Of a stretch of 64,000 bases of DNA, positions 58,999 through 64,000 are shown in pieces; position 1 is the first letter of the stretch, and the number at the start of each line of letters is the position of its first letter. The translations under genes were made by a program, and so were the position numbers. Below the pieces are notes generated by a model, which had not been told where the DNA came from, searched no databases, and saw only the letters and a program-made list of their open reading frames with translations. The stretch is from Mucilaginibacter sp. PAMC 26640. Lineage in GTDB: Bacteria > Bacteroidota > Bacteroidia > Sphingobacteriales > Sphingobacteriaceae. The stretch covers positions 1,612,001 to 1,676,000 of the forward strand of contig CP014773.1 in assembly GCA_001596135.1 (NCBI GenBank), read 5' to 3'.

Positions 58999-59994
58999 CT
59001 ACTCCGCCATCCAAACCGCATCAACAAACCAGCCTTTACTATCCAGTAATTGATTAAGCGGCTTAAACCCGGTTGCCTTAGCCATCTTACTTACCTGGTC
59101 CAACGTATACTTCTGCGAGATCTCCATGTAAATGTATTCGTCTTTAGCAAAGCTGATATTGTCGGCACCATTTATTTTAACCTGCTGATCTTGCAGGCTT
59201 ACCAAATAGCTTCGGCAAGCGCCGCTTTCCGGGTCATACATTGCATAATGGTCAAATTGCTCAGTATCGAAATCTGCATTGAGCTCCCGGTTAATGCGCT
59301 CCAATAAGTTAAGGTTGAAGCGTTTGGTAATGCCTTCTTTATCGTTATAAGCTGCCAGTACCGTTTTCGGGTTCTTTTTCAAGTCGACACCAATCAGCAC
59401 CATATCACCGGGGGAGAGGTGGTCGCGCAGTATTTTACAGAAATCTTCGGCCTCTGCCACAGGCATATTGCCAATATTAGAGCCAAGGAACATCACCACT
59501 TTGCGCTTATCAGAAATAGCAGCGGCTTTTTTCAGCATATCAAAGTATTCGCCCTGCAAGCCGGTTATTTTGATACCCGGCAAAGTAACCGGCAACGTGA
59601 TGTTAAGATAAGAGATCACATTGCCCGAAATATCTATCGGAAGGTAGGTAAAATCAGCTTTTTGATCTATCAGGTTTTTAAGCAAATGAGAAGATTTTGT
59701 GGCATCACCTGCACCAAGTTCTATCAAATCAAAACCATCACCAGCGGCAATCAAAGCATTGGCCAATTCCGCGGTTTTTTGAGTGAAAATCTCCATCTCG
59801 CAGTTTGTAGGGTAATACTCGTCACAGTTCATCAGGTCCTGGAAAAGTTTATCACCCTGTGCATCGTAAAAATATTTCGATTCCAGGCGCTTTGGTACAG
59901 ACAGCAGGCCCGCCAAAATATCATTGTGAAATTGCTTGTCTATTACTTCATTTTGTTTAGCGGCCGATTGTTGGCAGGTGGTAGTGTTTTCCAT
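58999..59994 (-). CDS. egtD: L-histidine N-alpha-methyltransferase (ergothioneine)
   Basis: 331 residues. It transfers three methyl groups from SAM to histidine to give hercynine, the first step of ergothioneine synthesis. Family marks: VPKRLESKYFYDAQGDKLF, CDEYYPTNCE, the SAM loop ELGAGDATKS (92-101), FLGSNIGNM and DMVLIGVDLKK. The C-terminal domain keeps the histidine-binding region (ISFAKDEYIYMEISQKYT). It is the last gene of the run and starts 21 bases after egtB stops. Downstream, 58720-58998 holds nothing that I can assign. Confidence 0.93.
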   Translation of the reverse strand: MENTTTCQQSAAKQNEVIDKQFHNDILAGLLSVPKRLESKYFYDAQGDKLFQDLMNCDEYYPTNCEMEIFTQKTAELANALIAAGDGFDLIELGAGDATKSSHLLKNLIDQKADFTYLPIDISGNVISYLNITLPVTLPGIKITGLQGEYFDMLKKAAAISDKRKVVMFLGSNIGNMPVAEAEDFCKILRDHLSPGDMVLIGVDLKKNPKTVLAAYNDKEGITKRFNLNLLERINRELNADFDTEQFDHYAMYDPESGACRSYLVSLQDQQVKINGADNISFAKDEYIYMEISQKYTLDQVSKMAKATGFKPLNQLLDSKGWFVDAVWMAE

Positions 59995-60015: not shown

Positions 60016-61170
60016 TTATTTAGCAAGACGTATGCCAGTAAATTGCCAGCGTAACTCCGGCTGAAAAAAGTTTCGGTAAGTAATTCGGCTATGGTCCGGA
60101 GAGGTCACTTCAGAAGCTCCCCGGAGCACCTTTTGCCCCACCATGAATTTGCCGTTATATTCGCCAATAGCACCCGGTGCTTTGGCAAAACCAGGGTAAG
60201 GTAGGTAGCTGCTTTCTGTCCATTCCCAGCGATTGCCCCAGGCAAATTGTGTTGCCGCTACTTCCCATTCAAATTCGGTTGGCAATCTCATACCTTTCCA
60301 AGAGGCATAAGCATAGGCTTCATAATAGTTAATGTGGCACAATTCTTCATGCATTACCAGTGGCTCCAGGCCATGGTAATTGTAGTACTGCCATGCGCCA
60401 TCTATCTGGTGCCAGTACATAGGGGCCTCTATTTTATTGGTATTTACCCAATCCCATCCGGCGGCGTGCCAATGGCGGAAATCGTGATAACCACCTGCGT
60501 TAATAAATTCCAAATATTCGGCATTGGTAACCAGTGCCGAGCTGATCTCAAAGGCGTTCAAATATACCTTATGACGATTCAGCTCGTTATCAAAGGCGAA
60601 GCCTTGCCCTTCAAAACCGACCTCGTAAACACCTTCTTCAATTTTAACAAACGCTTTGTCCGCAGGAACTATGGCCCTGGGTTTAACATAATTTTTTGAA
60701 TAGGCAGGAAACAGCGGGTTGTTGCCAAGGATGTATTTGATATCTGTCAGCAGTAGTTCCTGGTGTTGCTCTTCGTGGTGAAAGCCCAAAATAAGGAGTT
60801 CTTCCACGTCGTTACTTATGTTGCCACAAGCGATAAAACTCTGCATCGCATCGTCCACGTATTTGCGATACAGCTGAATGTCGATCACCGTAGGGCGGCT
60901 TAAATTACCCCTGTCCGTACGGATAACCCGGTTGCCTACCGTTTCATAATAACTATTGAACACATAATTGTAGTTGGCATCATATTCCTGATACCCCATA
61001 AAATAGGGTTTCAAAATAAAAGTTTCGAAGAACCAGGTAGTATGGCCGATATGCCACTTAGGCGGACTTACATCGCCCACAGGCTGCACTACATAATCTT
61101 CGGTTTGTAAGGGGGCGCAGATCGCTTCGGTGCGTCGGCGTACTTTTAAATAACAGTCAGCTAAATCCAT
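60016..61170 (-). CDS. egtB: Ergothioneine sulfoxide synthase
   Basis: 384 residues with the two-part build of EgtB. A DinB-like N-terminal domain carries the iron site: H43 in WHIGHTTWFFE plus H132 and H136 in HHEEQHQE (HX3HXE, E138). The C-terminal sulfatase-modifying-factor-type C-lectin domain follows (EVGFEGQGFAFDNELNRHKV, EWEWAATQ-like FEWEVAATQFAWGN). It joins a sulfur donor to hercynine through an O2-dependent reaction. FNSYYETVG and RGNLSRPT resemble the substrate-arginine region of known enzymes. No EgtA, EgtC or EgtE gene is nearby, so the sulfur donor and C-S lyase are unknown. The ATG lies five bases after the transporter gene. Confidence 0.92.
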   Translation of the reverse strand: MDLADCYLKVRRRTEAICAPLQTEDYVVQPVGDVSPPKWHIGHTTWFFETFILKPYFMGYQEYDANYNYVFNSYYETVGNRVIRTDRGNLSRPTVIDIQLYRKYVDDAMQSFIACGNISNDVEELLILGFHHEEQHQELLLTDIKYILGNNPLFPAYSKNYVKPRAIVPADKAFVKIEEGVYEVGFEGQGFAFDNELNRHKVYLNAFEISSALVTNAEYLEFINAGGYHDFRHWHAAGWDWVNTNKIEAPMYWHQIDGAWQYYNYHGLEPLVMHEELCHINYYEAYAYASWKGMRLPTEFEWEVAATQFAWGNRWEWTESSYLPYPGFAKAPGAIGEYNGKFMVGQKVLRGASEVTSPDHSRITYRNFFQPELRWQFTGIRLAK

Positions 61171-61175
61171 TGGTA

Positions 61176-62747
61176 TTATTTGCTATCCAAATATCGTTTG
61201 AGGTTAGAAATTGTTTTAACATTCAAATCTTTTGCCTGTTGCTGCCGCATCATTAAAGCGTAGGCGTTGTTGAAACCGATTGGCTTGAGCCATTTAAGCT
61301 GATAGCGCTTTTCAAATTCGCGGGCTACATAATTGTAGGTGCTATCTTTACTTACCTGTAGCTGGCTCACCGTTTTTGAGGATGCCTGCAGAATAGCAAG
61401 CAGGCCTGTGCCGGTGTACTCCGGGTAAAAATCTACCTGGTCGTTGGTTAAGGCATCAAAAACTATCTTGGTGCCCCCTAGGCCGGTTTTGGTAGCTACA
61501 TCATAGTTGGTGTAGCCTTTTATCAGCATGCTGTATATGCTGGCCAAAATGTATTGTTCGCCAAAAATTTTTGAACCGATGCGCACCACGCCGCCGCTTG
61601 CCGTTTTTGCAGGGCGAAAAAGATTTTTTGAAACCAGAAAGTCTTTAGCAACCCGTTCCGGGGATTGGTGCAGGTAGTCGGTTCTGTAATTCAACTCCGT
61701 CATAATGGAGTCGTTGATATGGCCGGCTAACAGATTGAGTGTTTTTTCAAGTTCAGGGAATTTTCTTAAAGCATCATCGCGAACAACGGGTGCGGCATAA
61801 TATGGCGGGAAGATCTTTTTATCATCCTCCAGCACCACCAAATTGTAAGCCTTTAAACGCCCGTCGGTAGAGTAGCCGCTGATCACGTCCAGTTCCTTTT
61901 CTTGCGCTGCTTTGTACATCACTGCGTCGCTAATCACAATGGTATGGATCTTTAAGCCATATTCGTTTTGCAGGCCCAAATTGCCATCTTGCCTACCCAT
62001 AAACTCGGGCGTGAAGCCTGCCGTTAATTTACTGCCATAAGCGGAAGGGATAAAGTAGAGGCAGGAGAGTATGACCAACATCACCGGCGCTACCTTTACC
62101 GCCCCTTTTATCTTTTTAAAATTCAGCTTTTGCACCAGTGAGAGCAGAAAATCGAAAATTATAGCCAGCAATGCTGCCGGGATGGCCCCCGCAAGGATCA
62201 TATTGGTGTTATTAAGCGAGATGCCGCCGAAAATGAATTCCCCTAAGCCGCCAGCTGCAATATAAGAGGCTAAAGTGGCCACACCAACATTGATCACCGT
62301 TGCCGTGCGGATACCTGCCAGAATCACCGGCATGGCTAAAGGTAGTTCCACTTTAAACAGTATCTGCCATTTGCTCATCCCCATAGCCATTGCCGCCTCT
62401 TTTACGGTGCCGTCCACGCCGGTTATACCGGTATAGGTATTGCGGATAATGGGCAATAGCGCATAAAGCAGCAATGCCACAATAGCGGGTTTGGCGCCAA
62501 TGCCTAACAGCGGAATCATAAAGCCGAGCAATGCAATACTTGGGATGGTTTGTAATATTCCTGCAATACCCAGCACCAGCCCCGAGATGCTTTTTTTCCG
62601 GGTAATATAAATGCCTAATGGCAGGCCTATGAGCACCGCGATAAATAGCGAAATAAAGGTAAGCCCAATGTGTTGCAGGGTTTGTATGCCCAGTTTATCG
62701 GCCTGCTGACTCATAAAACTCCATAAGGTTTGCTGTTGCTCATTCAT
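61176..62747 (-). CDS. ABC transporter permease fused to a circularly permuted substrate-binding domain (EgtU/OpuC-like)
   Basis: 523 residues from ATG 62747, overlapping the ATPase stop by eight bases. Residues 25-210 are a MetI-type permease (LGIAGILQTIPSIALLGFMI; EAAMAMGMSKWQILFKVELP is the coupling EAA loop; VATLASYIAAGGLGEFIF). A further helix (220-236) leads into the binding domain. There the order is unusual: the piece LTAGFTPEFMGRQDGNLGLQ, GYSTDGRLKAY and FPPYYAAPVV (241-375), which in OpuCC and pneumococcal EgtU comes last, is here first. The piece VRIGSKIFGEQYI, TGLGGTKIVFDAL, FYPEYTGTGLL and GFNNAYALMM (388-520), normally first, ends the protein. The fold should be intact but permuted. 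Ergothioneine is the likely substrate from gene context; betaine-type osmolytes remain possible. Confidence 0.88.
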   Translation of the reverse strand: MNEQQQTLWSFMSQQADKLGIQTLQHIGLTFISLFIAVLIGLPLGIYITRKKSISGLVLGIAGILQTIPSIALLGFMIPLLGIGAKPAIVALLLYALLPIIRNTYTGITGVDGTVKEAAMAMGMSKWQILFKVELPLAMPVILAGIRTATVINVGVATLASYIAAGGLGEFIFGGISLNNTNMILAGAIPAALLAIIFDFLLSLVQKLNFKKIKGAVKVAPVMLVILSCLYFIPSAYGSKLTAGFTPEFMGRQDGNLGLQNEYGLKIHTIVISDAVMYKAAQEKELDVISGYSTDGRLKAYNLVVLEDDKKIFPPYYAAPVVRDDALRKFPELEKTLNLLAGHINDSIMTELNYRTDYLHQSPERVAKDFLVSKNLFRPAKTASGGVVRIGSKIFGEQYILASIYSMLIKGYTNYDVATKTGLGGTKIVFDALTNDQVDFYPEYTGTGLLAILQASSKTVSQLQVSKDSTYNYVAREFEKRYQLKWLKPIGFNNAYALMMRQQQAKDLNVKTISNLKRYLDSK

Positions 62748-63705
62748 GGGGTTGCAGAGTTTTATATTTGGAATATGCCGCCATAACCTGCTCAAAAGTT
62801 ACGGTTTTAAAGGCTTTGGTTTGTTGATTGAAGATATTGAGATTTTCGCCCTGAATAAACTTGAACTGCTCAAAGGCCGACCAGATATCCGCATCGGCAG
62901 ATAATGAAGACGGGTTTGTTTTGCGATCTACTTGCGGCAGGTATTCCCACAGGTCATACACCCTGATCGCTTTCAGCTCCAGTTGAAGGCGCTGCTCTTT
63001 TAAAAAGCTGCTGACAAAATCATTTGCGGGTTTGAACAACAGATCGGCAGGCGTGCCTATCTGTACAATTTTACCCTTATCCATCAGCGCAACCCGGTCG
63101 GCCAGTTCAAACGCTTCCTGCACATCGTGCGTAACCATGATGATGGTTTTTCGCTTCAATTCGTCCAACGCCTTAAATTCCTTATGAATACTGGTACGGG
63201 TAACGTTATCTAAGGCGCCAAAGGGCTCGTCCATCAACAGTACCGGCGGGTCTGCTACCAGCGCGCGGGCCAGGCCAATTCGTTGCTGCTGGCCGCCGCT
63301 TAGTTCGTTTGGGTAAACATCTAAATATTGTTTATCCAAATGGAGTTTTTGTAATAGTTCTAAACTCCGCTTTTGTGTTTTCCCTTTATCCCATTTAAGC
63401 AACCCCGGCACTATAGCAATGTTTTCTGCAACGGTATAGTGGGGGAAGAGGCCGTTATTTTGCAAAACATAGCCAATGCCCCGGCGTAATGTCTCGGGCG
63501 ACTGCTCTAAAATGTTTTGCCCACCAATGGCAATCGTTCCACTGTCAGGCTCTATGAGCCGGTTCAGCATTTTAAGGGTGGTGGTTTTTCCGCATCCGCT
63601 GGTACCCAGCAAAACCAGGGTTTCGCCTTCGGCTACTTCAAAAGAAATGTCATCTACCGCTTTTGTTGTATTGAATATTTTTACGAGATGCTCAACTTTG
63701 ATCAT
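62740..63705 (-). CDS. ABC transporter ATP-binding protein (EgtV/OpuCA-like)
   Basis: 321 residues from ATG 63705. Walker A LLGTSGCGKTT (32-42), Q loop YVLQNNGLFPHYT, signature LSGGQQQR (135-142), Walker B VLLMDEPFGALD (155-166) and the switch His in VTHDVQEA. It is most similar to the quaternary-amine/osmoprotectant importer ATPases. The ~80 C-terminal residues (ELKAIRVYDLWEYLPQ, FKTVTFEQVMAAYSKYK) do not look like the tandem CBS domains of osmosensing OpuA/OpuCA. It overlaps the permease gene by eight bases and lies eight bases after the disulfide oxidoreductase gene. Confidence 0.9.
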   Translation of the reverse strand: MIKVEHLVKIFNTTKAVDDISFEVAEGETLVLLGTSGCGKTTTLKMLNRLIEPDSGTIAIGGQNILEQSPETLRRGIGYVLQNNGLFPHYTVAENIAIVPGLLKWDKGKTQKRSLELLQKLHLDKQYLDVYPNELSGGQQQRIGLARALVADPPVLLMDEPFGALDNVTRTSIHKEFKALDELKRKTIIMVTHDVQEAFELADRVALMDKGKIVQIGTPADLLFKPANDFVSSFLKEQRLQLELKAIRVYDLWEYLPQVDRKTNPSSLSADADIWSAFEQFKFIQGENLNIFNQQTKAFKTVTFEQVMAAYSKYKTLQPHE

Positions 63706-63713
63706 ACATTTGC

Positions 63714-64000
63714 TTATGCCTCCAGCGCCATAAATAGGTTGTTTAATGATTCTGAATAAGTAGGATGGGCAAAAACACAATAACGTATGCGATCATAAGT
63801 AATGCCACCCTCCATAGCCATTTGCAGCACCGACATGATCTCGCCGCCTTCGGTCCCCACAATAGCTACACCCAATATTTCTTTGGTATCGGCATTAACT
63901 ATCGCTTTCATTAAGCCTCGGGTATCGCCGGTTTCCAGCGCCCTCGCCACATGCGACATTTCTAAACGTGCTACTTTTATGTTTAGCCCCTGCTTTATTG
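63714..64000 (-). CDS. Partial NAD(P)/FAD disulfide oxidoreductase (dimerisation domain)
   Basis: The last ~95 residues of a gene that begins beyond the window. The frame is open to base 64000 and reads IKQGLNIKVARLEMSHVARA, then LETGDTRGLMKAIVN, EILGVAIVGTEGGEIM and VFAHPTYSESLN. This is the Pyr_redox dimerisation domain of the glutathione-reductase/lipoamide-dehydrogenase/mercuric-reductase family; HPTYSE is the active-site His-Glu pair. The redox Cys pair and the substrate lie outside the window. The stop is eight bases before the ABC ATPase ATG, so it heads the ergothioneine-transport unit. Confidence 0.88.
   Translation of the reverse strand, partial: IKQGLNIKVARLEMSHVARALETGDTRGLMKAIVNADTKEILGVAIVGTEGGEIMSVLQMAMEGGITYDRIRYCVFAHPTYSESLNNLFMALEA

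Follow-up and report, generated by a model that had tools for sequence, protein, structure and literature searches.

The window, that is, the whole stretch of DNA analysed here, comprises 64,000 nucleotides of the genome of Mucilaginibacter sp. PAMC 26640 (contig CP014773.1, positions 1,612,001 to 1,676,000). Four genes follow one another on its minus strand, in the order ABC ATPase, permease/substrate-binding fusion, EgtB and EgtD. The open reading frames and Pfam matches place a permease domain and an OpuAC-type substrate-binding domain (SBD) in one chain, with the gene of the partner ABC ATPase adjoining. Hereafter, half A designates the N-terminal half of the pneumococcal SBD EgtUC, half B its C-terminal half and TM the permease piece, so that the fusion reads TM-B-A. 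The features are as follows, in coordinates of the window.

62740..63780, minus strand: ABC ATPase, nearest to the ProV type (346 aa from the listed TTG), overlapping the start of the fusion ORF by 8 bases
61176..62747, minus strand: permuted permease/substrate-binding fusion, TM-B-A (523 aa; ATG at 62747, stop at 61176-61178; ORF and Pfam)
62109..62708, minus strand: permease core, residues 14-213 (own piece limits; Pfam BPD_transp_1 at 41-213)
62037..62120, minus strand: extra helix, presumed membrane anchor, residues 210-237, immediately N-terminal of the binding domain (AlphaFold2 helix, strand from 241)
61617..62036, minus strand: half B, the counterpart of the C-terminal half of EgtUC, which comes first, residues 238-377 (Pfam, phmmer, HMM piece)
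61587..61616, minus strand: linker from the native C-terminus to the native N-terminus, residues 378-387, fast evolving
61185..61586, minus strand: half A, the counterpart of the N-terminal half of EgtUC, which comes last, residues 388-521 (genome search, phmmer, HMM piece)
60016..61170, minus strand: EgtB, ergothioneine biosynthesis (TIGR03440, 520 bits, cut-off 360)
58999..59994, minus strand: EgtD, L-histidine N-alpha-methyltransferase (TIGR03438, 293 bits, cut-off 290.9)

Against the Pfam OpuAC model (257 positions), the SBD aligns in two pieces whose order is swapped, residues 237-371 corresponding to model positions 111-255 and residues 388-521 to positions 3-113; when the protein itself is searched, the first piece is 238-371, on positions 112-255. 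The best match of the SBD in the PDB is EgtUC (E 1.1e-54 with phmmer, 3.4e-69 with the profile described next), and here too two pieces are found: phmmer places query residues 240-377 on EgtUC chain positions 138-275 (E 1e-34) and residues 390-518 on positions 10-134 (E 7.6e-17). A profile derived from 70 permuted domains (alignment A2, in which 69 of the 80 scan loci presented below accompany the window) was searched against the PDB at E<=10. It matched 27 distinct sequences, every one in two or three stretches, and in all 27 the best stretch joins opposite halves, the first half of the query with the second half of the chain in 26 cases and the reverse in one (4wep). As a control, an unpermuted domain from Bacteroidota (L134) aligned with EgtUC as a single collinear stretch, 10-251 of 252. 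The circular permutation of the binding domain is thus real. The sequence-only reading of this DNA had claimed such a permutation for an EgtU-type SBD fused to a permease, and the swapped two-piece matches and the collinear control, together with the conservation described below, bear it out.

The spread of the permutation in Bacteroidota was mapped by homologue searches. In a draw of 395 genomes across the phylum, full-length permuted proteins occur in 22, including the window's own; the other 21 are 50-87% identical to the query. A genome scan returned at least 574 stretches encoding some relative, of which the best 80 loci, selected for likeness to the permuted query, were retained; their record titles all name Bacteroidota, and the piece order is TM, B, A in all 80. 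For alignment A1, 14 of these 21 full-length loci were added to the window, and for alignment A3, 63 of the 80 scan loci. Among 295 genomes of the same class, 13 gave one match extending along the permuted domain, of which G571 was new and the other 12 had appeared in the 395-genome draw; the unpermuted order was met in one genome of this set (G146). Conservation of the permuted fusion in several Bacteroidota families is supported by these searches. The whole protein matched 1189 plasmid records, each in three or four pieces among the 40 listed, and the SBD alone matched 397, each in two pieces among the 30 listed. The permuted order outside Bacteroidota was found in none of the 16 plasmid loci in which the order was read (L165-L180). 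Phage records gave 16 matches, each in two pieces among the five listed.

Selection on the fusion was examined in seven pairs of Mucilaginibacter relatives, picked among those of equal length and compared ungapped. In TM, B and A, pN is 0.03-0.10 and pS 0.65-0.81, the latter near saturation. For the ten residues that link B to A, the same pairs give a pN of 0.42-0.61. Selection is purifying, and far weaker in the linker, which looks like a spacer, whereas the remainder looks like a working protein. The sequence-only reading had considered a frameshift or an assembly join as a possible source of the order, to which a pseudogene may be added. Such an origin can be rejected, its probability being negligible, since the same order is shared by 22 of the 395 genomes, by the 80 best scan loci and by 13 of the 295 class genomes (12 of them overlapping), and since the seven pairs show purifying selection. 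An argument on its side comes from one relative (G080, with loci L009 / L118), which carries an in-frame TAA close to the start of the permease part, owing either to a sequencing error or to decay.

The SBD was modelled by AlphaFold2 with a mean pLDDT of 87.4 and a pTM of 0.84. The model of the whole protein has a pLDDT of 80.0 and a pTM of 0.67, some of the permease lying below 50; within it, the block means across the extra helix (211-240) are 62-79. In the linker region (SBD residues 141-150, i.e. protein residues 376-385) the block mean is 94. Compared in sequence order with VIA-align, the SBD model superposes on B. subtilis OpuAC (2b4l, 2b4m, 3chg and 5nxx) with Z of 20.6-21.2, over 240-247 residues at 3.0-3.4 Å, and the next entry follows at Z 10.6. 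The ends of these alignments nearly coincide with those of the chains, model residues 2-283 corresponding to 12-272 of 2b4m and residues 4-283 to 12-272 of 2b4l. Foldseek also lists the OpuAC entries first, with moderate TM-scores of 0.61-0.72 and 4.2-4.9 Å. With EgtUC 7txl_A, Foldseek aligns one half only (140 columns, 1.7 Å, 45% identity), and the EgtUC chains 7txk_B and 9o5f are forced into long alignments at 7-8 Å and 13% identity. It should be noted that the aligners used keep the chain order: the joint fit of both halves on EgtUC rests on sequence, and the absence of EgtUC among the 50 VIA-align entries listed carries no weight. On the predicted model, the chain order of the SBD is that of B. 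subtilis OpuAC and is therefore not new in itself. For the whole model, the first two Foldseek entries are the OpuA chains 7ahd_A and 7ahh_A (531 and 506 columns), although the fit is weak (TM about 0.5, 7.8-8.3 Å); VIA-align superposes model residues 16-516 on 7ahh_A with Z 19.4, over 372 residues at 4.6 Å. On this model, the fused whole is predicted to be collinear with L. lactis OpuA, so that tethering in the B-A order would have a solved precedent. The OpuAC domains of L. lactis and B. subtilis are described as superposing at 0.98 Å (PMC2861598).

The position of the cut can be located on the two lobes of EgtUC, given in PMC9732360 as D1 (233-331 and 445-506) and D2 (341-432). This numbering equals the chain index plus 229 on the phmmer alignment, on which the 14 ligand residues named in that source fall correctly. 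The cut maps to about 363/367 and thus lies within D2. It had been read from the sequence as a hinge crossing; this was wrong, the published lobes being separated at about 331-341 and 432-445. The accompanying claim that the permutation changes which lobe is tethered to the membrane fares better: both ends of the unpermuted EgtU domain lie in D1 and both ends of the permuted one in D2, from which we infer that the tether shifts from D1 to D2. In the full model, the helix ends at residue 237 and the first strand starts at 241, so that the tether looks very short. For OpuA, PMC11065425 describes an 11-residue linker behind the anchoring helix, and contacts of V149 of each permease copy with a different lobe of a single docked SBD. 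In view of these contacts, a homodimer could accommodate a lobe swap by docking of the domain over the other copy.

The origin of the permutation was approached with a quick, unrooted tree of 76 rows, computed with long-branch warnings. The window and the 21 other permuted genomes were joined by seven of the 80 scan loci, by 31 loci of the A-B-TM type and by 16 loci from plasmid records, the last being the only rows from outside Bacteroidota; L118 is represented by the part after its in-frame stop. Typed by three profile pieces, the rows comprise 29 TM-B-A, 32 A-B-TM, 9 TM-A-B and 6 separate-gene sets. A branch with SH-aLRT 95 sets the TM-B-A rows apart from all others, and another (87) does so for the A-B-TM rows. 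In a midpoint-rooted drawing, TM-B-A stands beside the Bacillota and Fusobacteriota rows (83). One origin suffices for the permuted rows of this tree, and a single permutation from an A-B ancestor is the simplest reading. Descent from the Bacteroidota A-B-TM fusions is not supported, these forming a separate clade, and TM-B-A is not a whole-gene circular permutation of A-B-TM. Duplication intermediates were absent from the 76 loci parsed, which are a small sample.

Two other histories have to be weighed. It could be proposed that this branch preserves an ancestral B-A order, and that the A-B order found in the other groups arose later, since in an unrooted tree TM-B-A simply occupies one side of a branch. 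This is very improbable: the remaining sampled groups all have the A-B order, archaeal ProX (1sw1) and OsmF (4wep) are also A-B, being swapped with respect to the permuted profile, and a single change is enough if A-B is ancestral. Alternatively, OpuAC and the present domain may both descend from one permuted ancestor, so that a single ancient permutation would account for both. The equal chain order and the nearly equal ends of the SBD model and of OpuAC speak for such an ancestor. However, half B is 45% identical to unpermuted EgtUC, whereas the domain as a whole is only 14-16% identical to OpuAC. Moreover, the OpuAC entries 2b4l, 2b4m, 3chg and 5nxx are not among the 27 PDB sequences matched by the profile at E<=10 (5nxy, titled OpuAC with its molecule named OpuCC, is among them). 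Finally, the domain contains a single Trp and hence no three-Trp prism; its cage is built of Tyr/Asn, as in the ProX/EgtU class. A shared permuted ancestor is thus improbable, if less so than an ancestral B-A order. From the identity of only 14-16% and the absence of 2b4l and its kin from the profile matches, the permutation in the EgtU branch appears to be separate from that of OpuAC, and the single permutation from an A-B ancestor is retained.

The permuted importer usually lies in an operon of the type ATPase-permease-EgtB-EgtD. Both EgtB and EgtD are found within 6 kb in 75 of the 80 best scan loci, and the order ATPase-TM-B-A-EgtB-EgtD is kept in 72 of the 80. The five loci without both genes are L037 and L079 (contig edge), L112 (EgtD only), and L099 and L104 (neither). 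The last two, from Flavobacterium, retain the permuted transporter and the ATPase and show no EgtB or EgtD match within 6 kb. One of the 75 loci with both genes, L054, stands apart from the remaining 74 in that EgtB and EgtD, close to the end of a contig, are encoded on the strand opposite the transporter. Within the same distance, both genes occur in 13 of the 22 permuted genomes (window counted), EgtD alone in three (L130-L132, where it stands close to the edge of the stretch read) and neither in six (L124-L129). At the A-B-TM loci, EgtB and EgtD accompany the fusion in 6 of 31 cases and neither is seen in 25, some flanks being clipped.

The ligand pocket was compared using residue numbers from PMC9732360, mapped via the phmmer alignment to EgtUC. 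The equivalents of K242, T275, T296, N339, Y341, E375, R379, Y419 and Y443 are identical in all 29 TM-B-A rows. The cage and carboxylate residues Y341, Y419, Y443, N339, K242, T296 and R379 are thereby kept, as is E375, which contacts the imidazole in EgtUC. The ergothioneine markers of EgtU are replaced in the same 29 rows: G244 gives way to F (25 rows) or Q (4 rows), F293, the fifth cage residue of EgtUC, is invariably Y, and Y337 invariably F; in the window, these positions are F395, Y444 and F492. Judged by its sequence, the protein is of EgtU type, and in this respect the earlier label stands, but the G244 and F293/Y337 markers of ergothioneine binding that the label might suggest are missing. 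Both types of Bacteroidota fusion have mostly ProX-like residues at the three markers, though both can adjoin egtB and egtD. According to PMC9732360, these markers are absent from relatives beyond the EgtU subcluster, for which a different betaine is a possible ligand.

The most likely substrate would be ergothioneine or a related histidine betaine (hercynine) in the first place, and a general osmoprotectant in the second. The latter possibility corresponds to an importer of glycine betaine or choline that merely adjoins egtB and egtD. Such an importer would agree with the F/Y/F combination at G244, F293 and Y337, which PMC9732360 gives for the glycine-betaine-specific AfProX, and with the six of the 22 permuted genomes devoid of an EgtB or EgtD match within 6 kb. 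On the other hand, egtB and egtD cluster with the transporter in 75 of the 80 best scan loci, the imidazole contact E375 is retained in all 29 rows, and a search of the window's genome at E<=0.001 yielded no OpuAC-family protein other than the fusion. In addition, some relatives outside the subcluster, such as that of Helicobacter pylori, are described in PMC9732360 as aiding ergothioneine uptake at lower affinity. A general osmoprotectant importer is therefore rather unlikely, and uptake of ergothioneine or hercynine is preferred.

Taken together, it is quite probable that the fusion belongs to an ABC importer as its membrane subunit, that its EgtU-type SBD was permuted once in Bacteroidota, and that the importer serves the uptake of ergothioneine, hercynine or a similar betaine. 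This subunit would presumably form an OpuA-like homodimer, the SBD being joined via a sixth helix. In one lineage of Bacteroidota, the EgtU-type domain would have undergone circular permutation, probably by tandem duplication of the domain behind the permease followed by loss of the first half A and of the last half B. A short linker would then have bridged the old termini, the new ones arising in a loop of D2. The domain is predicted to fold into the same two-lobed trap, in the chain order of OpuA, and would be tethered by D2 rather than D1. In the homodimer, one docked domain would put a lobe on each permease copy, so that the move of the tether may be tolerable. Finally, in a cell that makes the antioxidant ergothioneine by means of the adjacent EgtB and EgtD, the importer would most likely take up or recapture this compound, its precursor hercynine or a similar betaine. 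A more far-reaching version can be formulated, in which a recurrent permutation at the loop of OpuAC turned a D1-tethered importer into a D2-tethered one that recaptures lost hercynine or ergothioneine, and in which it depends on the tethered lobe from which protomer the domain that loads the pore is supplied. The operon and the altered pocket are what point to recapture here; as a whole, this version is speculative and rather unlikely.

The permutation looks like a second, independent instance of one domain permutation within a superfamily of binding proteins, now inside a permease fusion. Because unpermuted fused relatives exist, the importance of the tethered lobe in an ABC importer becomes directly testable. 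Moreover, an EgtU-like importer is placed in a Bacteroidota ergothioneine-making cluster, whereas, according to PMC9732360, homologues of EgtU are almost confined to Firmicutes.

That glycine-betaine-binding proteins (2B4L, 1R9L and 1SW1) are related by circular permutation was reported in 2008 with CPSARST (PMC2395249). The mention in the sequence-only reading of permutations between betaine-binding subclasses is thus matched in print, by OpuAC versus ProX. The proteins compared in that report are OpuAC and the ProX proteins of E. coli and A. fulgidus; the EgtU branch is not among them, and no permease fusion is involved. Among the titles and abstract openings listed from a mostly open-access literature on permutation and domain dislocation, EgtU, OpuA and ergothioneine genes in Bacteroidetes, none mentions a permuted EgtU.

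Among known and related systems, the Bacteroidota A-B-TM fusions (at least 31 genomes; also Gemmatirosa, L168) are built from the same two modules and have the same F/Y/F pocket residues as the window, and 6 of the 31 likewise adjoin egtB and egtD. Their SBD is, however, unpermuted and N-terminal to the permease, and they form their own clade. No genome containing both TM-B-A and A-B-TM was seen among the matches listed of the 395-genome search. EgtUBC of S. pneumoniae and BilE of Listeria (TM-A-B) likewise carry permease and SBD in a single chain, and pneumococcal EgtUC is the nearest solved sequence to the SBD of the fusion, with a common Tyr/Asn cage and common carboxylate-binding residues. 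In contrast to these systems, the fusion described here has the halves of its SBD swapped (TM-B-A), would have its tether on D2 instead of D1, lacks the G244/F293/Y337 markers and is usually clustered with egtB and egtD.

B. subtilis OpuAC and L. lactis OpuA share the chain order of the SBD with the model of the fusion, and in L. lactis OpuA the permease, the anchor helix and the SBD are fused in the same order. However, the identity of the SBDs is 14-16%, and the present domain has no three-Trp prism: residues 236-523 contain one Trp (W486), and the cage positions are Tyr/Asn. The ATPase of OpuA carries CBS domains, and a CBS domain was not found in the partner ATPase, in which Pfam at E<=0.001 recognizes ABC_tran, AAA_21 and Rad17 only. 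Thus, the chain order and the OpuAC/ProX permutation were known, and what is new is an apparently independent permutation in the EgtU branch, within a permease fusion.
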